DNA of 64,000 nt, from the NCBI GenBank assembly GCA_011109175.1, contig RDEW01000009.1:109121-173120 (forward strand). The letters are read 5' to 3'. Source of the stretch: Dicyema japonicum. Taxonomy: Eukaryota > Dicyemida > Rhombozoa > Dicyemidae. Position numbers and translations under genes: made by a program. The notes below the pieces were generated by a model. It was not told the origin of the DNA and ran no database searches. It saw nothing but the letters and a program-made list of their open reading frames with translations. Position 1 is the stretch's first letter. The number at the start of each line of letters is the position of its first letter. Positions 13,292-51,889 of the stretch are shown here, in pieces.

Positions 13292-13533
13292 TTATAGTCG
13301 CAGTTGACCAAGGACTATCTTTCGCTAGAAAATTAAATAATAATTAGTATTATTGCCACAGGATAACTGGGTTAAAGAAAAAGAATCTCCCATCTAACAA
13401 ATTAATTCAAGGCCGTCAAGGGGGAGAAAATTCAATAAATTTAATTATCACAAAATAATTTATTTTTTATAAAAGTCATGAAATATTTTATTTGAAAATT
13501 AATTTAATTATAAATTCAAAATCTTGTTAGAAA

Positions 13534-15928
13534 ATGGAAATTCCTTCACTATATGCTCATTGCATGAAAACTATTCGAGAATACATTAATGGGACAAATT
13601 ATCAAGCATTAAGCGAAAAAACTAAAAAAATGATTTCTAAAAGATTATCAGAAGATCCAAGTTATTTAGAATATCTATTTGCCGGTGAAAATCGAAAAGA
13701 ACAATATTCACGTATATACAAATTCCAGATGTAGTACATAAGAATATTTTCTGCGTTAAATTGATAAATGAAAAAGTTGACATTAAAGATGTTGTCAGGA
13801 TGATTCAAGTTTATCCGAATTTATCGAATATTAAAATATGGCAAATAACTTCAACAGAAAAGCAGCCTTTACTACCATTTTCACCTAATAACGTCAAATC
13901 ATTCTCACTTCTAGAATATAATGACCCAGATTTGTTACATTCCCTATTTATGACTGGATTTAACAAAATAACATGCCTTGAACTTTTTCATGACGAACGT
14001 GAAGTGTCAGTAATCCTTAAAAGTACCACATTGAAAATAATGGAGAAACTGGAACGCATAGAATTATCTAACGTTATGATTATCGACTTTGAAGAATTTT
14101 TGGCAAACCTAAACAGTCCAGAGTCCTTGTGGTTTGTTTTTTTATAATTCAGTCATTTTGCACTCGTGCATACTGGACTTTGGAATCGTAGAAGGTTGGA
14201 TGTGAACGATATATGTTGTCTTTTTGAAAAAGCAAAGAACCTTACTTTTCTAGATTTATCAAAGTCTCTTATCGATGTACAAAGACTCAAATAGTAATTT
14301 ATTTTAATAATCTTAGTCAAATGCTGAAATACGGATTGAACAAACATCAAGATGAGAATACCTTATTTTTCATTCAAAATATAAACGAATGGGTAAATCT
14401 GAGAAAATAAAATAGATTGATCGAGAATTGGCATTAAATAACTTAGCCAGGTTTGTTGTAACTACAAGAACTATTGGATGAAACAATCTGTAAGTTTCGC
14501 AATAAGAAACTTCGAAATAACTTTCTAAATCGATTTTTGAGAGTATTTTGAAAATATTATTGTAGATTTTATATCATAAATATAACGTCAAAGATTATAG
14601 ATACCCGCGTTATTCTATGTAACTTATTATATTACTTCAGAAATATTCTAAATCATATTACCAAAACACACGATATTTCGTATTTTAATCGTCGGTATGA
14701 GTTGATCTTATTCGTAGTTTAATTTATGATATTTTTCTCATTGTTCTTATGTTTTGCATATGTAATAGAAAATTGGTAATTGAGATTTTAAATTTGTAGC
14801 ATATTGCTCTTGATTGTTCAAATTTATTATTCAATTTAAAACCATGGAATACGCCAATTTTCGTTGATTACTTTTTATTTTAGATCAATGCGTTGTCATG
14901 CATGTTTATTGCAATAGCTACATCTCCCGACCCTAATAATAGAATATATAAAAACTGTCGATTTGTCATGAAACGTTTAAATATCGGATTTTTATCTTAT
15001 TTTGGGCATTCTGGACTTGTCAAAGTTTAAAATTTTGTATTTTTAGTACTGCCTTGAATGTATCAAAACATTATCTGTCGGAGTTGGTGGGTTTCTATTT
15101 ATATTGGGCTGGCTATTAGGTATTTGAAATACGTTTAGTTAGACGAAAATAAAATGAATGTGAATTTGTTTATTGATTTTGGCGGAATTGAAATTATTTG
15201 TCATATTGATGATAGATCCCGGTTCAAAAATTCCAACTTAAAGATTATGCTTTCACTCGTTGAAATTGCGGAAAATCTTGCTAAATTCCCGAAATCTAGA
15301 CGTTTACTGGGGGCTTGTAGACTCGTAGAATTTTTATTGTAAACTTGTTAACTTATTAAAAAGGATCCAACTTACGACAATTGGGAATTCTATCTGCCCT
15401 ATAGAATCAGGCGGTGCATGTGTATTTTATTGAGTGATTCTCATATTTCCCCTACATTTATAAATTTGGATATAGGTGATATGAGCCCCCGAGAAATGAT
15501 TCTAGATAAAATTTTTCAATTTGTAAATAAATATACTTTTGCAGGATGTCATGATATTATTGAATGTGATGCTGATAGAAGGTTATTCCATTTTATATGT
15601 AAGGTCGTTTATGTCAACAGTAAATCTATTATGCGTAAACACAGATGAGCGAATTTGGCTTTGGGCTGTGTGGGAATGTGCTAATATATCATTTACATCT
15701 CGTTAATATTTATTTTTATAATAGCAAATGTACTTATGTTCAAATTGATGGACTATTATATTCTTCCGAAAATTAGCAATGTATGTATAAAATCTAAAAT
15801 GGAAGAGATCCATCACTATTTTTGGACTTTTAGAATAAATTACTTTGTTGCTATTTTTATAATTTTAGGAATTCATTAGAAGTCAACTTAGAAGTGCGAA
15901 TTCTTTAGTTATTTCAATTTCTCATTAA
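13534..15928 (+). pseudogene. ZYG11/ZER1-like gene, decayed copy 1
   Basis: Aligned by eye with the intact copy at 48,895-51,275, it has the same ATG, exon order and ultrashort intron positions. One base is lost near 13,721 (tacaaattcc against tacaagattcc), so the first frame ends after 66 codons. One base is gained near 14,470 (actacaagaac). The acceptor of intron 11 near 15,368 is shifted by one base, which puts the downstream exon out of frame. Introns at positions matching 12 and 13 keep GT and AG. The 3' end is longer than in copy C if the last intron is removed (stop at 15,926-15,928). Some one-base differences could be sequencing error, but several independent ones argue for a pseudogene. 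Confidence 0.8.
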
Positions 15929-15954
15929 CAAATAATTAATTATTATTAATTGCA

Positions 15955-16212
15955 ATGTCCACGGAACCAGAAAAGTTAGCTAATTTGAGATTCCAATTTT
16001 GCCATGCATCTCTGGATTTGCGTTGTAAGTAGTTTCCATCCTCCCCTTTTTTTCGTAACCGCTTTCAGATCATTCAGATCTCTCCTCTCCTGTTTTCAGT
16101 TTTCTTCTATGTAAGTGATATCTTTTTCAAGCGTCGACGGCAACGTTGTTCTTTGTCGACCTCGATACGTTGTTATGTCTAATATAGGAAATTATGATTC
16201 AATGGACGAATG
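15955..16212 (+). CDS. Candidate host gene 5' exons, unrecognised
   Basis: Just downstream of the ZYG11-like copy an ATG opens MSTEPEKLANLRFQFCHASL, followed by a GTAAGT donor at about 16,025 and a pyrimidine-rich stretch ending in CAG about 44 nt later. A second GTAAGT donor (near 16,110) is followed by CAAG 21 nt on. The same arrangement is kept in unit B (32,448-32,703) but is absent after copy C. The protein is not recognised. The LINE 3' fragment starting near 16,210 may have truncated it. The assignment rests only on the initiator and the splice-like signals. Confidence 0.3.
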
Positions 16213-16900
16213 AATAACTCACTCAAAGAGAAATGGAGTCACACAAAGAAACTTGGCTTCCTATTAGGAGATAGTGAAGATATCATACGGAGAAAAACCA
16301 TGGCAAACGCGGCATTACACAGGCTGAAAAACCTATGGCTAAAACGGAGAGGGAACAACATAAAACAAAAGATAATGTTATACAACACTTTTATCAATCC
16401 AATCCTCCTATACAACTCTGGGACCTGGGCCACCTCAAAAGAGGATTTGGAGAGGCTAGACTCGTTTCACAGGAATCATCTAAAAACATTACTGGAATGT
16501 CCTGGCCATCCAAATTTTGCGGAAAGGACTGTACAATAAGTGTGACTGTACACCATTAAGTCACGAGATCATTAGCTCTTGTTGGAGACTTTTTGGACAA
16601 GTCCTGAAATTGGACCCGATATTCACCTTTCCCCGAATATCGCAATGGAAGATTATTACTCTTCTCCAATGTAAAGCGATATAGTGGAAGACCGAGAACA
16701 ACCCTACCGGTCGTTTTACAAAACGATTTGAAAGCCGTAAAGAAAACATTGGCATCTGGTGACGATCTGGACTCACTGAGGGGTCTAGCTAAGAACAGAA
16801 GAGCTTGGAGCAACTAACTAATTCTCTTATATTTTTTGCTGCACATGCGGGGCTATAAATATTATGGCTCTCGTAAAAGTGCTAATAATAATAATGATTC
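16210..16900 (+). pseudogene. LINE reverse transcriptase C-terminal end with 3' tail
   Basis: The frame from 16,210 gives EKWSHTKKLGFLLGDSEDII, KQKIMLYNTFINPILLYNSG and RLDSFHRNHL. After frame changes, 16,640-16,815 gives GRPRTTLPVVLQNDL, GDDLDSLRG and AKNRRAWSN, which is the conserved C-terminus. The 3' untranslated end has ctgcacatgcggggctataa and ttatggctctcgtaaaagtg and finishes in (taa)n near 16,880-16,897. Same family as 3,983-4,801 and 20,870-21,110. It is 5' truncated and frameshifted. Confidence 0.82.
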
Positions 16901-17159
16901 CACGGCCTGATTGGCCGGTGCCATTTCCAAAACTCTTGTGATATATCAAAGAGCTGCCATTTTGCCGAAGTAACTTTATTCCCAATCTATGTTGTTTGAG
17001 TAATTCTGTAGAGCTCGTCGTTAGTCATCCGTTTTGGTCAGAAATAATTTTCATAATTGTATTTTTGACCGGCATTCTCAATCAATTGATATTAATTTAA
17101 TCTTATTAATTTAACTTACATATATTTTACTGATCACGAGGTCAACCAAATGTTATTAA

Positions 17160-17400
17160 ATCTTAATTTATTTTATTATCCCCCTATACACTAAGAAGGA
17201 AGTTAAAAGTGAAAAACTAGTTAAGTGTATCCAGCTTCCAATGCTACGGAAACAGAGTCCATTCGGTACCAGTATAAAAGATAAAAGACCTCCATTAGTT
17301 GCAGTTGTGGAAAACTTTCCCATGGAGTGGGGGAGAGCAAATGAATTTTTTTAGTGTCGTCTGGTACTGGGCGCCATTCTATTAAAAACGGAAAGAGAAG
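17160..17400 (-). repeat. Recurrent ~240-bp SINE-type repeat (family 2), minus copy
   Basis: Inverted, it carries ttttccacaactgcaacta, aatggactctgtttccgtag, ggaagctggatacacttaac and a tail of ataataaaataaa. The same blocks occur at 20,520-20,800, 27,600-27,790, 33,660-33,895, 35,760-36,060 and 46,485-46,655. It is short, non-coding, dispersed and has a simple AT-rich tail, which fits a SINE. No clear tRNA promoter boxes were seen. Confidence 0.6.
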
Positions 17401-17519
17401 GAACAGACAAAACAAATAAAAACTTCTTTTATTTGTTAAAAAATTACATTTAATAATTAATTTTTGTATTTTTCTAAAAATAAATTGCAATTTTTTGATA
17501 TTTTTATTTTTCGGTTGTC

Positions 17520-26372: not shown

Positions 26373-27520
26373 CTATATGATATTATACCTTAATATAACC
26401 ATGCTGCTAATTTTAAACGTATCTTCATCGCTTTTCCATTTACGCTTTTCTTCTATCCGGTCTGCTGCCAGCACAATATTTATATATGCATCTTTTCTCG
26501 AATCCTCCAATTGCAGTAATTCAGTGTCTACCGCCTTTAATTGTTCTAATTCATTGTCTTTAACTTTGATAGGATATTCAATTCCCATAAAAATGTAAAA
26601 TGGTATTTTCTTTGTAGAAAATCGTATTATCGTGTTATTATAGTCGTAAATGATGTCCTGAAGGTATCGCAATATCTTCCAAAACAATTATCTGTATAGC
26701 TTTTTGATGATATCCATCTTTTGATGCTTTATTTAATCTCATTAGTAATAACAAGTTTTAGCAAACCGTTCAACCTGGCCTTGTATCCACGGAGCTCTTG
26801 GTCTTCCACGAATATGGTGTGCCTTGAATTTTTGGCATAACCCCTCCATATATCCGTTACAGATTTCCTTCCCGTTGTCTGTATATAAAATCAATGGAAG
26901 GCCAATACGTCTGGACACAATTTGGAATAATTTGGCGATTTCTTTAGCACATTTTGAATAAGACAGTTCAACGACTGCGGATTTGGAAAAAAGCAATAAT
27001 TACAAAGATGTAATATTATTGATGAGATGAATTCCCAGTTATAGGAATCATTGATTTCGGAATATCTTTTAAATCAATTAATCCGCTAAATATCGGTCTC
27101 TACATTTTCTTGCGAGATTGGTGTATCGAGGTTGTGTATACAATGCTTTTTTCGATTGGCATGGAACATACGCTGAAATTACTTTTGAAATTTGGGCTCT
27201 TGCTATTCCATAATATTTTCTTCGGAGTTTCGAATATAACCGATCCCGCCCAAAATGATTCTGATTGTGCTCAGCCTAAAACTCCAAAACATCAATAAAT
27301 TTTAGCTTAATTTCTTGCTCTTCCTTATAAAAAATCTCAATTTAGTTTGATTTCTGATTATTTGAGGAATACCATCTTCAAAAATTAAAGATTTGGCTAT
27401 TTGATTTAGCCTAAATATTTTCGCTCTAGATTCAGAATCTTCAGCCCCAAATTGGCTTGGATTGAGTTTTGAATTCTTTATTTTTTCGAATGTTTCTTTG
27501 TCGAGACTCACTAAACCCAT
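26373..27520 (-). pseudogene. KRBA2-like integrase, degraded
   Basis: On the minus strand, 27,520-27,302 gives an N-terminal region (VSLDKETFEKIKNSKLNPSQ, AKSLIFEDGIPQI). After about 300 bp in broken frame (LIDLKDIPKSMIPITGN), 26,996-26,742 gives the integrase core: LFSKSAVVELSYSKCAKEIA, GLPLILYTDNGKEICNGY, IRGRPRAPWIQGQVERFAK. TDNGKEI and QGQVERF carry the second Asp and the Glu of the D,D-E triad. 26,687-26,373 continues with ILRYLQDIIYDYNNTI and PFYIFMGIEYPI. The order fits integrases of the KRBA2-like type found in many invertebrate repeats. Duplicated in unit B. Confidence 0.72.
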
Positions 27521-27599
27521 TCAGAAACGTTGTATTTTTTTAAATTATAGTTATTATTGTTTTCTAATAATTTTATTATCAAAAAATTATTTTTTTGCA

Positions 27600-27790
27600 A
27601 TTTGTTATAAAGCGTTACACCTACGCCCCCACTCCACTGGAGGGGTTTCCACAACTGCAACTATGGACGTCTTACCCTTTATGTTGATTCCAGATGGACT
27701 CTGTTTCTGTAGAAGTGGAAACTGGATACACTTAATTAGTTGTTTACTTTAACTTCTTTCTCGCTGTATCCGGAATTAATAAATTAAATT
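27600..27790 (+). repeat. SINE-type repeat (family 2), plus copy
   Basis: Contains cactggaggggtttccacaa, ctgcaactatggacgtctta, ggactctgtttctgtagaag and actggatacacttaattagt, with a taataaattaaatt tail. Confidence 0.65.
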
Positions 27791-28214
27791 ACACCTATGG
27801 ACTGTCACATGGTCTTAATTTTCCTTTAGTTGGGGATTTCCATTGTGGATAGAAAGGATCGTCATTTTGAATATCCTACAAATTTATTCAAAGTAAAATA
27901 TTATCCACCTTTGTTAGAATAAAAAAAGGAGGCAACCGTATAGTGAGTCGGTCCTCCTATTTGCAACTTTTACTCAAGAAAATATAATTATTGTATTAAC
28001 AATTTCCCATGCCTAAACATAACATAAATTCTATTTTGGTGATATTTAGAACATCAATTCTACTTATATTGAGACATAATTTGTCCAGGTTACCACGTGG
28101 AGAAACTTTCTGGGATTGTTGATTTGATTTGTTATGATTAATCTTATTTAATCAGGTTTATTCTGTTTTAAAATTAATCTATTTTTTACTACTAAAATTT
28201 AGTACAAAATTAAT
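27791..28214. other. Spacer with a conserved hairpin-like motif
   Basis: No gene seen. At about 27,929-27,960, GGAGG-CA-ACCG and CGGT-CCTCC can pair around a tatagtgagt loop; in unit B (near 46,790-46,820) one stem base differs (CGAT). No other structure recognised. Confidence 0.35.
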
Positions 28215-28380
28215 TATAAAAGTTTAATGGTCCCCGCGAACATAATCGACGTTGAGTAGCCTCTCCGACAGCAACAGAGATCAACTGGAGAAGCCACTGA
28301 GTCGCACGTGTGTCGTGGCTTTTCATTGTAGCTAGGCGTCCAAGTTTCTTTTGGAGACGAAATGCTTTCCCGCTGGAATT
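28215..28380 (-). pseudogene. LINE C-terminal fragment
   Basis: The minus strand reads AFRLQKKLGRLATMKSHDTR and QWLLQLISVAVGEATQ. It matches KSLRFLKKLGRLATLKSHDA...WLLQLISVAIVRGNA at 51,908-52,162, the C-terminal end of the LINE group with the PVAVE motif. The same piece lies at 47,095-47,240 in unit B. Confidence 0.65.
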
Positions 28381-29810
28381 AAGGCTGAACAGTCCTTGCT
28401 ATCCCCTTTTTACGGTATTGGAATAAGTATAGATCTTTTTCACTCGCGTGGCCAAATACCAGTTTCCCGAATTTTTTGACATAACTGGTGACAGCTGTCA
28501 CCGGTATAGCCTTCAGCAATTCGTTTGAAATGTTGTCAATTCCTGGTGCCTTGTTCCCCGTTAATTGCCGTGTAGCCCACATGCAATTCTCCCTAAGGAT
28601 TTTATTCCCCTCACCCAACGTTGCTTCATCAACATATATTGGTGGGCATATAGTTTCTGAATGTAGTCGTTCCGTATCTTCTCTCCGACGATTTCGGATG
28701 TTCTTTTGGATTAGTAATTCTACACCATCCTTGTCCTTGATTTTGCCCATCATTTTTGTACCGGGGTTCATAATATTTTTAGTTGTAAATACGCATTCCT
28801 AGTGTGACCTCTCTTATAGTCATCTTTCATTTTTTTGCAGCGTAACCTCCACTAGTCTCCTTTATCCTTCCTGGTGCCTCTTTGAATTCAGAGTTAGGTT
28901 TTCTTTATCTTGTCTATATTCCCAAAGAGTTTAGCAGTTTTACGAGCCTCAGCAATGTCTAGGGTGTTGACAGAGAGCCACTCAGAGCACTTGGCCGGCG
29001 TTTTGTATTTGACATGTTTTATTGCAGCGTTCCTGATAACCAACTGCATATCATTCCATAATTCATCAGTCATCCTTCCGTTCAAATCCAGTAATCCAAT
29101 ATTGTGCTTAACTTCCATTGCGTATTCTGGTGGTATGTTTGAGACATCGAATTTCTCTACTCGGGGGGTATTCCAAGTGTAACTGAATTTCGTCCATATT
29201 TTTGCTACAATTAGCCGTTGGTCTGTTTCACGGTCTGACCTGGATATGTTTTGACGGCAGTTATAGAGCTTTTCCAACGTTTGACGTACAAAATATAATC
29301 AATCTGGTTCCTAGACATTCCATTTGGCAACGTCCAAGTGTATAATCGTCGTTTGTGCTGTTTGAACCATGTGTTAGTTATCTGAAATCCATTTTCCTGA
29401 CGGAATTGGACCAGTCGATCCCCAGCATCATTTCTTTTCCCCAAACCAAAACTTCCCACAAAATCCACATGTGGCATACACCCAACTTTTGAGTTGAAAT
29501 CCCCCATTATGTAGATTATGTCCTTTTTGGGTATTAGTTTTAGTGCCTCTTGAAATTCATAATAAAATTCGTCAATTTCGTCATCCTTGGCAATAGATGT
29601 TGGGGAATACACTTGCATGACCGTAATATTCAATGGTCGTCCACGGATGTGGATTAGTATTATCCGATAATTAAAAATTCTATGACTTTCAATAGCAGTT
29701 GCAATTTTCTTTGAAGCAATAAAGGCCACTCTATTTCTCTTCGCATTAATGTTACCAGAATAATATATGACGAAATCATCAATTTCAATCGCATAGTCGC
29801 AGTTGACCAA
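28379..29810 (-). pseudogene. RTE/BovB-like LINE: endonuclease, linker and RT start (unit A)
   Basis: The minus strand starts near 29,810 inside an AP-endonuclease domain lacking its first ~70 residues: FVIYYSGNINAKRNRVAFIA, IMGDFNSKVG, GSFGLGKRNDAGDRLVQF, FKQHKRRLYTWTLPNG and RNQIDYILYVKRWKSS. After a frameshift comes SDRETDQRLIVAKIWTKF, where the catalytic SDH histidine is replaced by glutamine. A linker follows (CSEWLSVNTLDIAEARK), then RT fingers (NKAPGIDNISNELLKAI). The element is cut before the catalytic RT motifs. It resembles the 'craniofacial development protein 2-like' endonucleases of RTE/BovB elements. Inactive. Confidence 0.82.
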
Positions 29811-30031
29811 GGACTATCTTTCGCTAAAAAATTAAATAATAATTGATATTATTGCCACAGGATAACTGAGTAAAAGTTGAAAGAATCTCCCATCTAACAA
29901 ATTAATTCAAGACCTTCAAGGGGGAGAAAATTCAATAAATTTAATTATCACAAATTAATTTATTTTTTATAAAGTCATGAAATTTTTATTTGAAAATTAA
30001 TTTAATTATAAATTCAAAATCTTGTTAGAAA

Positions 30032-32421
30032 ATGGAAATTCCTTCACTATATGCTCATTGCATAAAACTATTCGAGAATACATTAATGGGAAAGATTATC
30101 AAGCATTAAGCGAAAAAACTAAAAAAATGATTTCTAAAAGATTATCAGAAGATCCAAGTTATTTAGAATATCTATTTGCCGGTGAAAATCGAAAAGAACA
30201 ATATTCATGTATATACAAGATTTCAGATGTAGTACAGAATAATATTTTCTGCGTTAAATTGATAAATGAAAAAGTCGACATTAAAGATGTTGTCAAGATG
30301 ATTCAAGTTTATCCGAATTTATCGAATATTAAAATATGGCAAATAACTTCAACAGAAAAGCAGCCTTTACTACCATTTTCACCTAATAACGTCAAATCAT
30401 TCTCACTTCTAGAATATAATGACCCAGATTTGTTACATTCCCTATTTATGACTGGATTTAACAAAATAACATGCCTTGAACTTTTTCATGACGAACGTGA
30501 AGTGTCAGTAATCCTTAAAAGTACCACATTGAAAATAATTGAGAAACTGGAACGCATAGAATTATCTAACGTTATGATTATCGACTTTGAAGAATTTTTG
30601 GCAAACCTAAACAGTCCAGAGTCCTTGTGGTTTGTTTTTTTATAATTCAGTCATTTTGCACTCGTGCATACTGGAGTTTGGAATCGTAGAAGGTTGGATG
30701 TGAACGATATATGTTGTCTTCTCGAAAAAGCAAAGAACCTTACTTTTCTAGATTTATCAAAGTCTCTTATCGATGTACAAAGACTCAAATAGTAATTTAT
30801 TTTAATAATCTTAGTCAAATGCTGAAATACGGATTGAACAAACATCAAGATGAGAATACCTTATTTTTCATTCAAAATATAAACGAATGGGTAAATCTGA
30901 GAAAATAAAATAGATTGATCGAGAATTGGCATTAAATAACTTAGCCAGGTTTGTTGTAACTACCGAACTATTGGATGAAACAATCTGTAAGTTTCGCAAT
31001 AAGAAACTTCGAAATAACTTTCTAAATCGATTTTTGAGAGTATTTTGAAAATATTATTGTAGATTTTATATCATAAATATAACGTCAAAGATTATAGATA
31101 CCCGCGTTATTCTATGTAACTTATTATATTACTTCAGAAATATTCTAAATCATATTACCAAAACACACGATATTTCGTATTTTAATCGTCGGTATGAGTT
31201 GATCTTATTCGTAGTTTAATTTATGATATTTTTCTCATTGTTCTTATGTTTTGCATATGTAATAGAAAATTGGTAATTGAGATTTTAAATTTGTAGCATA
31301 TTGCTCTTGATTGTTCAAATTTATTATTCAATTTAAAACCATGGAATACGCCAATTTTCGTTGATTAATTTTTAATTTAGATCAATGCGTTGTCATGCAT
31401 GTTTATTGCAATAGCTACATCTCCCGTCTCTAATAATAGAATATATAAAAACTGTCGATTTGCTATGAAAAGCTTAAATATCGGATTTTTATCTTATTTT
31501 GGCATTCTGGACTTGTCAAAGTTTAAAATTTTGTATTTTTAGTACTGCCTTGAATGCGTAACAAAACATTATCTTCGGAAGTTGGTGGGTTTCTATTTAT
31601 ATTGGGCTGGCTATTGGGTATTTGAATTACATTTAGTTAGACGAAAATAAAATGAATGTGAATTTGTTTATTGATTTTGGCGGAATTGAGATTATTTGTC
31701 ATATTGATGATAGATCCCGGTTCAAAAATTCCAACTTAAGATTATGCTTTCACTCGTTGAAATTGCGGAAAATCTTGCTAAATTTCCGAAATCTAGACGT
31801 TTACTGGGGGCTTGTAGACTCGTAGAATTTTTATTGTAAACTTGTTAACTTATTAAAAGGATCCAACTTACGACAATTGGGATTCTATCTGCCCTATAGA
31901 ATCAGGCGGTGCATGTGTATTTTATTGAGTGATTCTCAATTTCCCCTACATTTATAAATTTGGATATAGGTGATATGAGCCCCGAGAAATGATTCTAGAT
32001 AAAATTTTTCAATTTGTAAATAAATATACTTTCGCAGGATGTCATGATATTATTGAATGTGATGCTGATAGAAGGTTATTCCAATTTATATGTAAGGTCG
32101 TTTATGTCAACAGTAAATCTACTATGCGTAAACACAGATGAGCGAATTTGGCTTTGGGCTGTGTGGGAATGTGCTAATATATCATTTACATCTCGTTAAT
32201 ATTTATTTTTATAATAGCAAATGTACTTATGTTCAAATTGATGGACTATTATATTCTTCCGAAAATTAGCAATGTATGTATAAAATCTAAAATGGAAGAG
32301 ATCCATCACTATTTTTGGACTTTTAGAATAAATTACTTTGTTGCTATTTTTATAATTTTAGGAATTCATTAGAAGTCAACTTAGAAGTGCGAATTCTTTA
32401 GTTATTTCAATTTCTCATTAA
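30032..32421 (+). pseudogene. ZYG11/ZER1-like gene, decayed copy 2
   Basis: Same organisation as the intact copy at 48,895-51,275. One T is missing after codon 10 (attgcataaaac at about 30,058), so translation from the ATG stops within 20 codons. Further one-base losses lie near 31,740 (cttaagatt against cttaaagatt) and 31,979 (gagccccgag against gagcccccgag), and the intron 11 acceptor is shifted. The short introns at positions 1-10 are otherwise conserved. It is closer to copy 1 than to copy 3 in its 3' two-thirds. Confidence 0.8.
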
Positions 32422-32447
32422 CAAATAATTAATTATTATTAATTGCA

Positions 32448-32703
32448 ATGTCCGCGGAACCAGAAAAGTTAGCTAATTTGAGATTCCAATTTTGCCATGC
32501 ATCTCTGGATTTGCGTTGTAAGTAGTTTCCATCCTCCCCTTTTTTTCGTAACCGCTTTCAGATCATCCAGATCCTCTCCTGTTTTCAGTTTTCTTGCTAT
32601 GCAAGTGATATCTTTTTCAAGCGTCGACGGCAACGTTGTTCTTTGTCGACCTCGATACGTTGTTTTGTTTAATAAAGGAAATTATGATTCCATGGACGAA
32701 TGA
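32448..32703 (+). CDS. Candidate host gene 5' exons, unit B copy
   Basis: Counterpart of 15,955-16,212: ATG with MSAEPEKLANLRFQFCHASL, then the same GTAAGT donor. The second donor is changed here (gcaagt, near 32,601). Only one residue differs in the first 20 codons (Ala for Thr). Product unknown. Confidence 0.28.
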
Positions 32704-33390
32704 ATAACTCACTCAAAGAGAAATGGAGTCACACAAAGAAACTTGGCTTCCTATTAGGAGATAGTGAAGATATCATACGGAAGAAAAACCATGGCAAACG
32801 CGGCATTACACAGGCTGAAAAACCTATGGCTAAAACGGAGAAGGAACAACATAAAACAAAAGATAATGTTATACAACACTTTTATCAATCCAATCCTCCT
32901 ATACAACTCTGGGACCTGGGCCACCTCAAAAGAGGATTTGGAGAGGCTAGACTCGTTTCACAGGAATCATCTAAAAAACATTACTGGAATGTCCTGGCCA
33001 TCCAAATTTTGCGGAAAGGACTGTACAATAAGTGTGACTGTACACCATTAAGTCACGAGATCATTAGCTCTTGTTGGAGACTTTTTGGATAAGTCCTGAA
33101 ATTTGACCCGATATCCACCCCTCCCCGAATATCGCAATGGAAGATTATTACTCTTCCTCCAATGTAAAGCGATATAGTGGAAGACCGAGAACAACCCTAC
33201 CGGTCGTTTTACAAACGATTTGAAAGCCGTAAAGAAAACATTGGCATCTGGTGACGATCTGGACTCACTGAGGGGCCTAAGAACAGAAGAGCTTGGAGCA
33301 ACCTAACTAATTCTCTTATATTTTTTGCTGCACATGCGGAACTATAAATATTATGGCTCTCGTAAAAGTGCTAATAATAATAATGATTCC
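32700..33390 (+). pseudogene. LINE reverse transcriptase C-terminal end (unit B)
   Basis: Same fragment as 16,210-16,900, with LLGDSEDII, ILLYNSGTWATS and the GRPRTTLPVVL C-terminus. Additional frameshift after LLGDSEDII. The tail (ctgcacatgcggaactataa, taataataatga) is retained. Confidence 0.8.
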
Positions 33391-33659
33391 ACGGCCTGAT
33401 TGGCCGGTGCCATTTCCAAAACTCTTGTGATATATCAAAGAGCTGCCATTTTGCCGAAGTAACTTTATTCCCAATCTATGTTGTTTGAGTAATTCTGTAG
33501 AGCTCGTCGTTAGTCATCCGTTTTGGTCAGAAATAATTTTCATAATTTTATTTTTGACCGGCATTCTCAATCAATTGATATTAATTTAATCTTATTAATT
33601 TAACTTACATATATTTTACTGATCACGAGGTCAACCAAATGTTATTAAATCTTAATTTA

Positions 33660-33895
33660 TTTTATTATCCCCCTATACACTAAGAAGGAAGTTAAAAGTA
33701 AAAAACTAGTTAAGTGTATCCAGCTTCCAATGCTACGGAAACAGAGTCCATTCGGTAAAAATGTATAAAGATAAAAGACCTCCATTAGTTGCAGTTGTGG
33801 AAAACTTTCCCATGGAGTGGGGGAGAGCAAATGAATTTTTTTAGTGTCCGGTCTGGTACTGGGCGCCATTCTATTAAAAAACGGAAAGAGAAGGA
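33660..33895 (-). repeat. SINE-type repeat (family 2), minus copy in unit B
   Basis: Matches 17,160-17,400. At 33,900 the sequence continues directly as agaaatagaactaaaatttt, which in unit A lies 1.44 kb further on. Confidence 0.6.
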
Positions 33896-34094
33896 ACAGA
33901 CAGAAATAGAACTAAAATTTTCAAAATCTCAAAACTTTTACGATTGAATACCATGAGTTTAGAATTTTTTTCAAATTAGTTTTTAGCCATTATATTTAGT
34001 AATTTTGGAGTTCATGAAACAAATTCTCATTCATTGTTGATTGCTTGGCATTCGTAACATTAATCCTATCGTTTTCAAAATTTTTCACTGTCTT

Positions 34095-46223: not shown

Positions 46224-46425
46224 TCAGACACGTTATATTTTTTTAAATTATAGTTATTATTATATATAATTTTATAAATATTTGTCGTTTTCTAATAATC
46301 TTATTTTGAATTCTTTATTTTTTCGAATGTTTCTTTGTCGAGACTCACTAAACCCATTCAGAAACGTTATATTTTTTTAAATTATAGTTATTATTATATA
46401 TAATTTTATAAATATTTGTCGTTTT
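45772..46425. repeat. Local duplications around a single N
   Basis: 45,772-45,997 and 45,999-46,223 are near-identical copies on either side of the N at 45,998. In addition about 120 bp ending in tttataaatatttgtcg is repeated at about 46,164-46,290 and 46,305-46,425. Unit A has this sequence once. Confidence 0.85.
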
Positions 46426-46484
46426 TAATAATCTTATTATCAAAAAATTATTTTTTTGCAATTTGTTATTGAGCGTTACACCTA

Positions 46485-46655
46485 CGCCCCCACTCCACTG
46501 GAGGGGTTTCCACAACTGCAACTATGGACGTCTTACCCTTTATGTTGATTCCGGATGGACTCTGTTTCTGTAGAAGTGGTAACTGGATACACTTAATTAG
46601 TTGTTTACTTTAACTTCTTTCTCGGTGTATCCTGAATTAATAAATTAAATTAGAT
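46485..46655 (+). repeat. SINE-type repeat (family 2), unit B
   Basis: Counterpart of 27,600-27,790; same blocks and AT-rich tail. Confidence 0.65.
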
Positions 46656-47240
46656 TTATAGACTGTCACATGGTCTTATTTTCCTTTAGTTGGGGATTTC
46701 CATTGTGGATAGAAAGGATCGTCATTTTGAATATTCTACAAATTTATTAAAAGTAAAACATTATCCAGCCTTTGTTAGAATAAAAAAAGGAGGCAACCGT
46801 ATAGTGAGTCGATCCTCCTATTTGCAACTTTTACTCAAGAAAATATAATTATTGTATTAACAATTTCCCATGCCTAAACATAACATAAATTCTATTTTGG
46901 TGATATTTAGAACATCAATTCTACTTATATTGAGACATAATTTGTCCAGGTTACCACGTGGAGAAACTTTCTGGGATTGTTGATCTGATTTGTTATGATT
47001 AATCTTATTTAATCAAATTTATTCTGTTTTAAAATTAATCTATTTTTTACTACTGAAATTTAGTACAAAATTAATTATAAAAGTTTAATGGTCCCCGCAG
47101 ACATAATCGACGTTGAGTAGCCTCTCCGACCGCAACAGAGATCAACTGGAGAAGCCACTGAGTCGCACGTGTGTCGTGGCTTTTCATTGTAGCTAGGCGT
47201 CCATGTTTCTTTTGGAGACGAAATGCTTTCCCGCTGGAAT
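46656..47240 (-). other. Spacer and LINE C-terminal fragment, unit B
   Basis: 46,656-47,090 has no gene but keeps the hairpin-like motif. 47,095-47,240 repeats the LINE C-terminal fragment of 28,215-28,380 (LQKKHGRLATMKSHDTR). Confidence 0.5.
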
Positions 47241-48672
47241 TAAGGCTGAAGAGTTTTTGCTATCCCCTTTTTTCGGTATTGGAATAAATATAGATCTTTT
47301 TCACTCGCGTGGCCAAATACTAGTTTCCCAAATTTTTTGACATAACTGGTGTTAGCTGTCACCGGTATAGCCTTCAGCAATTCGTTTGAAATGTTGTCAA
47401 TTCCCGGTGCCTTGTTCCCCGTTAATTGCCGTGTAGCCCACACGCATTCCTCCTCGAAGATTTTATGCCCCTCACCCAACGTTGCTTCATTAACATATAT
47501 GGGTGGGCACACAGTATCTGAATGTAGTCGTTCCGTATATTCTCTCCAACGATTTCGGATGTTCTGTTGGCTTAGCAATTCTACACTATCCTTGTCCTTG
47601 ATTTTGCCCATCATTTTCTTACGGTGGTTCGTAATCTTTTTAGTTGTAAATACGCATTTCTAGTGTGACCTCTCTTATAGTCATCTTCCATTTTTTTGCA
47701 GCGTAACCTACATTAGTCTTCGTTATCCTTCTTGGGTGCTTTTTTAAAATTCAGAGTTAAGTTTTCTTTTATTGTTTATATTCCCAGAGACTTTAGCAGC
47801 TTTACGAGCCTCAGCAATGTTTAGGGTGTTGACAGAAAGCCATTCAGAACACTTGGCGGGGGTTTTGTATTTGACATGTTTTATTGCAGCGCTCCTGATA
47901 ACCAACTGCATATCATTCCATAATTCATTAGTCATCTTTCCGTTCAAATCCAGTAATCCAATATTGTGCTTAACTTCCATTGCGTATTCTGGTGGTATGT
48001 TTGAGACATCGAATTTCTCTACTCGGGGGGTATTCCAAGTGTAACTGAATTTCGTCCATATTTTTGCTACAATTAGCCGTTGGTCTGTTTCACGGTCTGA
48101 CCTGGATATGTTTTGACGGCAGTTATAGAGCTTTTCCAACGTTTGACGTACAAAATATAATCAATCTGGTTCCTAGACATTCCATTTGGCAACGTCCAAG
48201 TGTATAATCGTCGTTTGTGCTGTTTGAACCATGTGTTAGTTATCTGAAATCCATTTTCCTGACGGAATTGGACCAGTCGATCCCCAGCATCATTTCTTTT
48301 CCCCAAACCAAAACTTCCCACAAAATCCACATGTGGCATACACCCAACTTTTGAGTTGAAATCCCCCATTATGTAGATTATGTCCTTTTTGGGTATTAGT
48401 TTTAGTGCCTCTTGAAATTCATAATAAAATTCGTCAATTTCGTCATCCTTGGCAATAGATGTTGGGGAATACACTTGCATGACCGTAATATTCAATGGTC
48501 GTCCACGGATGTGGATTAGTATTATCCGATAATTAAAAATTCTATGACTTTCAATAGCAGTTGCAATTTTCTTTGGAGCAATAAAGGCCACTCTATTTCT
48601 CTTCGCATTAATGTTACCAGAATAATATATGACGAAATCATCAATTTCAATCGCATAGTCGCAGTTGACCAA
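47240..48672 (-). pseudogene. RTE/BovB-like LINE: endonuclease, linker and RT start (unit B)
   Basis: Counterpart of 28,379-29,810. The endonuclease part differs from A by only one residue in about 199 (Pro for Ser), whereas the linker and RT parts differ more. The same SDH-to-Gln change and the same frameshift are present, so the inactivation predates the duplication. Confidence 0.82.
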
Positions 48673-51300
48673 GGACTATCTTTCGCTAGAAAATTAAATA
48701 ATAATTAGTATTATTGCCACAGGATAACTGAGTAAAAGTTGAAAGAATCTCCCATCTAACAAATTAATTCAAGACCTTCAAGGAGGAGAAAATTCAATAA
48801 ATTTAATTATCACAAATTAATTTATTTTTTATAAAGTCATGAAATTTTTTATTTGAAAATTAATTTAATTATAAATTCAAAATCTTGTTAGAAAATGGAA
48901 ATTCCTTCACTATATGCTCATTGCATTAAAACTATTCGAGAATACATTAATGGGAAAGATTATCAAGCATTAAGCGAAAAAACTAAAAAAATGATTTCTA
49001 AAAGATTATCAGAAGATCCGAGTTATTTAGAATATCTATTTGCCGGTGAAAATCGAAAAGAACAATATTCATGTATATACAAGATTCCAGATGTAGTACA
49101 TAAGAATATTTTCTGCGTTAAATTGATAAATGAAAAAGTTGACATTAAAGATGTTGTCAAGATGATTCAAGTTTATCCGAATTTATCGAATATTAAAATA
49201 TGGCAAATAACTTCAACAGAACAACAGCCTTTACTACCATTTTCACCTAATAACGTCAAATCATTCTCACTTCTAGAATATAATGACCCAGATTTGTTAC
49301 ATTCCCTATTTATGACTGGATTTAACAAAATAACATGCCTCGAGCTTTGTTATGACAAATTTTCAGTGTCAAAAATCTTTAAAAATAGCACATTGAAAAT
49401 AATGGAGAAACTGGAACGCATAGAATTATCTAACGTTATGATTATCGACTTTGAAGAATTTTTGGCAAACCTAAACAGTCCAGAGTCCTTGTGGTTTGTT
49501 TTTTTATAATTCAGTCATTTCGCACTCGTGCATACTGGAGTTTGGAATCGTAGAAGGTTGGATGTGAACGATATATGTTGTCTTCTCGAAAAAGCAAAGA
49601 ACCTTACTTTTCTAGATTTATCAAAGTCTCTTATCGATGTACAAAGACTCAAATAGTAATTTATTTTAATAATCTTAGTCAAATGCTGAAATACGGATTG
49701 AACAAACATCACGATGGGAAAACCTTAGTTTTCAATAAAGATATAAACGAATGGGTAAATTTGAGAAAATAAAATAGAATGATCGAGAATCGGAATTAAA
49801 CAACTTAGCCAGGTCTATTGTAACTACCAAACTATTGGATAAAACCATCTATAGGTTTCGCAGTAAAAAACTTCGAAATAACTTTCTAAATCGATTTTTG
49901 AGGGTATTTTGAAAATATTAGTATAGATTACCTATCATAAATATAACGTCAGATATCATAGATATGGTCATTATTCTATGTAACTTATTATATTACTTCA
50001 GAAATATTCTAAATCATATTACCCAAACACACGATATTTCGTATTTTAATCGTCTGTATGATTTGATTTTATTCGTAGTTTAATTTATGATATTTTTCTC
50101 ATTGTTCTTATGTTTTGCATATGTAATAGAGAATTGGTATTTGAGATTTTAAATTTGTAGTACATTGTTTTTGATTGTTCAAATTTATTATTCAATTTAA
50201 AACCATGGAATACGCCAATTTTCGTTGATTAATTTTTAATTTAGATCAATGCGTTGTCATGCATTTATATTGTAATAGCCACATCTCCCGTCTCTGATAA
50301 TAGAATATATAAAAACTGTCGATTTGTCATGAAAAACTTAAATATCGGATTTTTATCTTATTTTGGCCATTCTGGACTTGTCAAAGTTTAAAAACTTTGA
50401 ATTTTTAGTATTGCCTTGAATGCATCGAAACATCATCTGTCGAAGTTGGTAGGTTTCTAGATATGTTGGGCTGGCTATTAGGTATTTGAAATACGTTTAG
50501 TTAGACGAAAATGAAATGAATGTGAATTTGTTTATTGATTTTGGCGGAATAGAAATTATTTGTGACGTTGTCGATAGACTCCAGTTCAAACATACCGATT
50601 TAAATATTATGCTTTCACTCGTTGAAATCACGGAAAATCTTGCTAAATTTCCGAAATCTAGACGTTTACTGGGGGCTTGTAGACTAGTAGAATTTTTATT
50701 GTAAACTTGATTACTTATTAAAAGCGATCCTACTTACGACAATTGGGATTTCCATCTTCTCTATAAAATCATGAGATGTATGTGTATTTTATTGAGTGAA
50801 CCAAATATATCCCCTACATTTACAAATTTGAATATAGGTGATACGAGTCCCCGAGAACTGATTCTAGATAAAATTTTTCAATTTGCACTCAAGTATCATC
50901 ATTCAGTCGGTCGTGTTATTATTGATGTTGATAACGATAGAAGGTTATTCCATTTTATATGTAAGGTCATTGATGTCAACAGTAAATTTATTATGCATAA
51001 ACACAGATAAGCGAATTTTACTTTGGGCTGTGTGGGAATGTGCTAATATATCAAATATATATCGTTGATGTTTGTTTTTATAATAGCAAATGTACTTATG
51101 TTCAAAATGATGGATCATTGCATTCTTCAGGAAATTGATAATGTACGTACAAAATCCAAAATGGTAGGGATTCGTTACTATTGTTGGGATTTTAGAAAAA
51201 ATTACATTGTTGCTATTTTTATAATTTTAGAATTTCATTAAAAATCTATGTTATGCCTGCCCATTCTATAGTTAACTCATCTCTTATTAACTAATAATTA
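48659..51300 (+). repeat. Tandem segmental unit C (partial)
   Basis: Starts with the same tagtcgcagttgaccaagga junction. It is almost identical to B up to about 49,340, then clearly more diverged, and similarity ends near 51,300 just after the ZYG11-like gene. Confidence 0.85.
48895..51275 (+). CDS. ZYG11/ZER1-like protein, intact, 14 ultrashort introns
   Basis: ZYG11/ZER1 proteins are substrate receptors of Cullin-2 RING ubiquitin ligases. The ATG at 48,895 starts a 592-nt exon (SLYAHCIKTIREYI, then leucine-rich segments LSNIKIWQI and LERIELSNVMIIDFEEFL). Removing GT...AG introns at 49,491-49,514, 49,656-49,678, 49,755-49,777, 49,904-49,926, 49,980-50,001, 50,056-50,078, 50,137-50,160, 50,224-50,244, 50,386-50,408, 50,482-50,504, 50,701-50,724, 50,961-50,982, 51,064-51,086 and 51,209-51,230 (21-24 nt) gives one frame of about 686 residues; ZYG11B is about 740. 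ARM-like landmarks: WLLDENEMNVNLFIDFGGIE, SLVEITENLAKFPKSRRLL, LLWAVWECANIS, then MFKMMDHCILQEIDNV, in family order. Introns 1 and 9 have alternative donors in the same frame. If intron 14 is retained the stop is at 51,239-51,241. Copies 1 and 2 are broken. Confidence 0.88.
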
Positions 51301-51889
51301 ACATCAATTTATTTTTGACTGGCATTCTTAATTTATATTAAATGTCGCAGGCCTCTGAACGTACCGTTATCGTAATGATAATCAATTTTTGCTTTAATTA
51401 TTTAATATTTGAGCTTCCTCATCAATTAATATTAATTTGATTATTTAATCTAATCACCGAGCTGGACAGACTCCTCTGGAGGCCCTTATGAGACTTGACT
51501 CCAGATCACGGGAATTAGGCCCTGAAAATCAGTCAGCCGTCTTGTACGATCATGCGCGGGCACGAGAGAATAACACCGGACAAAGGTCGCTATAAGAATG
51601 CATGAAGATCAGGTGTAATTAGTTTTGTTTTTTACAATTAATTGTTATATTTTTTTCTAAAAATAAACTGCTATTAATATAAATTTGGTAAACTTATTAC
51701 AACTAAAGTCGTATACGTAAATTTTAATCCAAAATCACAACCCTAAACCGTAATTCAAACCATCAACCCTAAACGTTAATCCTATTTCTAATCTTAACCC
51801 AATCCTAAGACAAACCATAACCATATCTATAAGAGTCAATCAATAGCTAATCCTAGGAAATCATCGTACGCTGCCCTCATTTTATAATA
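51276..51889. other. Intergenic, with a degenerate ccctaa-rich patch
   Basis: No gene seen. Between about 51,730 and 51,835, variants of caaccctaaac / cttaaccca recur irregularly. The block at 51,470-51,560 is GC-richer but not recognised. Confidence 0.4.

Follow-up and report, generated by a model that had tools for sequence, protein, structure and literature searches.

A ZYG11/ZER1-family gene with 14 predicted introns of 21 to 24 nucleotides, one of a large and apparently partly decayed gene family in Dicyema japonicum

The stretch of DNA analysed here (64,000 nt, in the following the window; GC content 35%) very probably contains, at 48895-51275 of the plus strand, a spliceosomal gene of the ZYG11/ZER1 family which is interrupted by 14 mini-introns and is one of a large, at least locally tandemly grown and apparently partly decayed family of putative ligase receptors with changed degron reading. 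The assembly comprises 64.67 Mb in 191 contigs; 67.5 Mb and a GC content of 36.7% are given for the published Dicyema japonicum genome (PMC6736024). The BC box and the family assignment are supported by the sequence, and everything past family membership we infer.

According to the first-pass annotation of this DNA, removing about 14 introns of 21-24 nt at this locus would yield a single frame of about 686 codons. The final model bears this out, with a coding sequence of 2064 nt (687 amino acids plus stop) running from an ATG at 48895 to a stop codon ending at 51275 and distributed over 15 exons. Without splicing, the DNA offers a 205-codon open stretch (48892-49509) and short frames thereafter. 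The annotation had also described introns with lengths other than multiples of three and others with in-frame stops, and indeed 10 of the 14 are not divisible by three and 11 of the 14 would introduce an in-frame stop if retained. On the other hand, GTAAGG cannot be a recurring donor as claimed, since it occurs only once in the gene (50961), where in this model it straddles the acceptor of the intron at 50944-50965. Removal of the 14 segments by splicing is predicted from the DNA. In the following list, introns 1-6, 8-11 and 13 are placed by a paralogue alignment free of length limits, by position and phase shared with paralogues and by splice-site scores.

48895..51275, plus strand: complete coding region from ATG to stop in 15 exons, 687 amino acids (spliced-frame tests, paralogue profile)
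48895..49493, plus strand: exon 1, with the N-terminal box and the region in which ZYG11B carries LRRs; query for the copy count
48907..48936, plus strand: BC box SLYAHCIKTI (pattern SLxxxCxxxI), which binds Elongin C in relatives (contact residues from PMC13201589)
49494..49514, plus strand: intron 1, 21 nt
49656..49678, plus strand: intron 2, 23 nt
49755..49777, plus strand: intron 3, 23 nt
49904..49926, plus strand: intron 4, 23 nt
49980..50001, plus strand: intron 5, 22 nt
50056..50078, plus strand: intron 6, 23 nt
50137..50160, plus strand: intron 7, 24 nt (splice-site scores; ambiguous without them, 57 nt called)
50224..50244, plus strand: intron 8, 21 nt
50386..50408, plus strand: intron 9, 23 nt
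50482..50504, plus strand: intron 10, 23 nt
50701..50724, plus strand: intron 11, 24 nt
50944..50965, plus strand: intron 12, 22 nt (splice-site scores; ambiguous without them, 34 nt called)
51064..51086, plus strand: intron 13, 23 nt
51209..51230, plus strand: intron 14, 22 nt (set manually; position common to 24 of 31 paralogues)
50409..51208, plus strand: ZER1-like C-terminal ARM domain, exons 10-14, edges approximate (Pfam, PDB profile matches)

For the paralogue alignments, the genome was searched with the Pfam profile PF22964, giving 32 weak matches, one above the cut-off together with its neighbours, and 20 loci were taken. Eight of these served as profile seed after splicing by a finder that admits no introns outside 17-45 nt, and the profile was then rebuilt from alignments with free intron length (15-5000 nt), always excluding the window gene. 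When aligned to this profile with lengths free, the window gene shows 13 introns and neither frameshift nor stop. Eleven of these introns agree in position and phase with 10-17 of 17 paralogues (the 20 loci minus L032, L036 and L049), although these counts are not independent due to near-identical pairs among the paralogues. With splice-site scores trained on the actin loci described below, two more introns were resolved, at 50137-50160 and 50944-50965, the latter being chosen because the RS...LL stretch following its acceptor is invariant in a seven-member alignment of the family (A2). Intron 14 is located where the local alignment has already ended; it was set by hand because most of the paralogues covering that point have an intron there. 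An 18-nt segment also removed by the aligner (50112-50129) is provisionally retained as exon in the final model. Of the 486 introns called across 40 paralogue loci, 423 coincide with the 14 shared positions; among the latter, 364 measure 20-26 nt and 402 not more than 32 nt (median 23). Any given shared position is covered by 31 to 39 copies, of which 17 to 39 carry an intron there.

Tiny introns are ordinary in this genome. Human beta-actin was aligned to 20 actin/Arp loci with introns of 15-5000 nt permitted, and the count covered the 14 loci whose identity to human actin was at least 36%. At these loci, 50 of the 56 introns are not longer than 35 nt, and the 48 sequence-distinct ones within this limit most commonly measure 25 nt, with a mean of 24.6 nt. 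At the six weaker loci, which were excluded, longer introns were also called, some of which look like alignment faults. Introns mostly under about 30 nt and with a narrow spread are thus found in genes unrelated to the ZYG11/ZER1 candidate, in line with the earlier statement that introns near 26 nt are typical of dicyemids, with which the intron data in PMC2222250 and PMC6543705 agree. Two pairs of actin matches have equal scores (C94:965106 and 1001667, 36 kb apart; C137:1184227 and 1197917, 14 kb apart) and may be either recent segmental duplicates or assembly duplicates. Furthermore, four PAX loci in the genome identify it as that of an animal.

The profile search proposed with the annotation for checking the ZYG11/ZER1 assignment came out in its favor. 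The profile of alignment A2 matched 26 sequences of the PDB, the 17 best being ZYG11B or ZER1 (best E 8e-14) and the remaining nine designed armadillo proteins and beta-catenin-like protein 1. PF22964 was matched by all seven A2 members (best 1e-35), and the divergent copy L032 alone retrieved ZER1 at 4.6e-17. The window gene reached PF22964 with an E value of 0.0018 after crude splicing and of 0.00027 after better splicing (20.1 bits, below the Pfam cut-off of 27); its ZER1-like C-terminal ARM domain is found by the family profile, with the window gene alone staying under the cut-off. The crudely spliced protein on its own retrieved nothing from the PDB at E 10, and of the 6685 candidates that a profile search drew from about 5.8 billion proteins, none matched at E 0.001. 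At the N-terminus, a BC box was found in 33 of 41 copies with a somewhat widened pattern, while S or N apparently takes the place of the Cul2-box proline (P51 of ZYG11B), as judged by eye and not from an alignment. Pfam detected no LRR above cut-off (LRR_4 at E 0.25 only), and a weak stretch resembling the LRR part of ZYG11B is not significant. PF25013 (LRR_Zer-1) gave one weak place elsewhere, below its cut-off, and was dismissed, as was an AlphaFold model of exon 1 that is too poor for use (mean pLDDT 34.7). Taken together, membership of the gene in the ZYG11/ZER1 family, with an N-terminal BC box and a C-terminal ARM domain, is supported by these sequence comparisons.

In human ZYG11B, L18 and C22 contribute to the Elongin C contact and W522, D526, N567 and E570 hold the N-terminal glycine, as described in PMC13201589 and PMC13379236. 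The pocket residues could be mapped on 40 of 43 copies, L032 being possibly misaligned at W522. W522 is kept in none of the 40, D526 in 34, N567 in 24 and E570 in one, with K replacing E570 in 34, whereas R649 is kept in 35. No copy among the 40 combines all four residues of the glycine pocket, and the window gene itself shows G, D, N and K at the respective positions. As the glycine-holding residues of human ZYG11B are partly replaced, the copies probably read degrons other than Gly/N-degrons. Regarding the ligase partners, the genome encodes an Elongin C (57% identity over residues 8-67, E 6e-16). The single place matching PF03931, which from its letters we take to be SKP1, was rejected as Elongin C. 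The cullin profile PF00888 gave nine matches on five contigs; in the two cullin genes examined, C104 (nearest to CUL1) and C174 (weakly CUL1, then CUL2), a clear CUL2 was not found.

With exon 1 as query, 124 matches from 138 candidates were obtained in the genome. Merging those that share a strand and lie within 1200 nt leaves 91 loci, spread over 36 contigs, a count which includes many fragments, may be inflated by assembly duplicates and excludes L036 and L049, two copies lacking exon 1. At least in this window, the family has grown by tandem segmental duplication, as three copies lie within duplicated units spaced by about 16.5 and 18.9 kb. Besides the gene described above, these are:

13534..15939, plus strand: tandem copy 1, with frame breaks (genome match, window self-alignment)
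30032..32432, plus strand: tandem copy 2, with several small frame-breaking indels (genome match, window self-alignment)

The segments 13294-17421 and 29793-33917 match at 97.6%, and 27467-32432 and 46304-51301 at 93.3%. Divergence between copies 1 and 2 is low (dN 0.012, dS 0.028, intron interiors 0.020) compared to that of the window gene from copy 1 (dN 0.090, dS 0.116) and copy 2 (dN 0.087, dS 0.117). Between the window gene and these two copies, the intron interiors have diverged by only 0.060 and 0.064, respectively, which is about half the synonymous rate. Likewise, in 72% of 117 copy pairs, which are not independent of each other, intron divergence is below that at fourfold sites. The introns thus change more slowly than synonymous sites, which suggests that intron interiors are under constraint over most of their 21-24 nt. 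With 423 introns at shared positions, this one gene family lets one measure what a spliceosome needs within 21-24 nt. Positive selection was considered for exon 1, where dN/dS values of 1.22, 0.91 and 2.21 result from 9-22 changes, but dismissed, as none is significant by bootstrap. In exon 1, not only dN but also dS is lowered, a pattern equally compatible with gene conversion and with selection.

Several further elements were seen in the window. Endonuclease-like ORFs (PF03372) of retroelement-like appearance lie on the minus strand at 29214-29813 and 48076-48675, just upstream of copy 2 and of the window gene as third copy, and a retroelement-like piece of reverse transcriptase (PF00078) is found at 2011-2526. 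Between 55230 and 63196 there are several tandem repeats of two copies each, their units being 152-228 nt long and 93-97% alike.

Free choice among the many GT...AG pairs of AT-rich DNA might by itself produce an open frame, in which case the gene would consist of the 205-codon stretch only. Some gene-finding results point in this direction: guided by codon scores alone and allowed introns of 60 nt at most, the finder usually halts at 49509 or, when forced onward, chooses a mixture of introns of 15-60 nt, so that the gene is not recovered by codon scores unaided by a trained intron model. However, when asking how far the DNA stays open from 49492 with GT...AG introns of set length removable at will, the real sequence reaches 51290, that is, the full 1799 nt, with introns of 20-25 nt, while none of 1000 dinucleotide shuffles (best 478 of 1799 nt) and none of 402 other window segments (both strands, overlapping) does so. 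Allowing 17-45 nt provides weaker, less specific evidence, since the end is then reached by 16 of the 402 segments, albeit still by 0 of 1000 shuffles. Within the gene, GT...AG spacings of 21, 22, 23 and 24 nt occur 6, 10, 13 and 6 times (35 in total), whereas any other spacing between 18 and 40 nt occurs 4.1 times on average. The whole window shows no clear excess at 21-24 nt, and the genome scan for tiny introns suggested in the annotation, done with the single pattern GTAAAT-N14-TAG, found no excess either, the 788 matches being fewer than the 1328 of the reversed control. Little weight is given to these two counts, as the gene takes up only a minor part of the window and the scan used one pattern on mostly non-coding DNA. 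Considering also that the intron positions and phases are common to paralogues and that the ZYG11/ZER1 similarity resides in the spliced downstream part, an artefactual frame is highly improbable.

A less remote, though still unlikely, reading accepts the introns as real but takes the gene for a decaying family member that gives no working protein. Many copies indeed look decayed: frame breaks or stops were called in most of the 43 examined (40 fetched plus the three in the window), and only seven, the window gene included, cover more than 600 profile positions with no frameshift or stop called, although some of these calls may be alignment or assembly faults. In addition, pocket residues are lost, and dN/dS over all exons amounts to 0.77 and 0.75 for the window gene versus copies 1 and 2 (0.42 between the latter two). 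Against decay of this particular gene, its 687 codons are free of frame breaks and stops, with BC box and splice sites kept, and at the family level 30 of the 91 exon 1 loci are open over full length by hand count. The reading as an intact, spliced ZYG11/ZER1-family gene is thus preferred.

For a product of this gene, the BC box would dock on Elongin C and thereby join a Cullin-RING ligase, while the groove of the C-terminal ARM domain would select proteins for ubiquitination and destruction. Most likely, the protein acts as substrate receptor of an Elongin-based Cullin-RING ligase having an ARM groove with new specificity, and the copies may be read as Cullin-ligase receptors that are radiating and have changed in specificity. 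For Dicyema japonicum, 5,012 genes have been published. Judging from the expansion, such a reduced parasite genome can devote dozens of its loci to a single kind of degradation receptor with changed pocket, making the family a testable case of new degron specificity. Short introns of dicyemids are already known, whereas the expansion with altered pocket appears to be undescribed in the literature searched: no paper joining dicyemid and zyg11 was retrieved, and neither 'zyg' nor 'ubiquitin' occurs in the main text of the paper on the Dicyema japonicum genome (PMC6736024).

With regard to known systems, the introns resemble the dicyemid mini-introns in having GT-AG borders, a narrow length distribution near 25 nt and several occurrences per gene. 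Such mini-introns were reportedly treated by Ogino et al. in 2010. For dicyemids, a mean of 26.2 nt in 16 introns (PMC2222250) and a median of 27 bp are given, the latter alongside a median of 57 bp for orthonectids (PMC6543705). Paramecium and a nucleomorph have very short introns as well (PMC2222250). With a mean of 22.6 nt, the window gene is at the short end, compared to 24.6 nt in the actin/Arp genes of the same genome and the published 26.2 nt.

ZEEL-1, a ZYG11B homologue in C. elegans and the antidote of a selfish element (PMC12680543), likewise represents a ZYG11 relative tied to protein degradation outside the canonical receptors. By analogy, one might speculate that in this dicyemid ZYG11/ZER1 has given rise to a large, fast-turnover repertoire of degradation receptors without Gly/N-degron reading, driven by genetic conflict much as ZEEL-1 in nematodes, with selfish elements, transposons or foreign intracellular proteins as drivers, a scenario we regard as rather doubtful. 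Among spiralian parasites, flatworms also show a lineage-specific expansion of this family, the 12 zyg11-like paralogues of Hymenolepis microstoma being reported as part of a large expansion in parasitic species (PMC6225667). By count, the dicyemid family has many more loci, though many of them are fragments or broken. With ZYG11B and ZER1, which are substrate receptors of Cullin-2 RING ligases, the copies share the N-terminal BC box, the C-terminal ARM domain and, mostly, D526 (34/40) and R649 (35/40). They deviate in W522 (0/40), in the E570 to K exchange (34/40), in the apparently replaced Cul2-box proline and in sheer number, with 91 exon 1 loci, fragments included.
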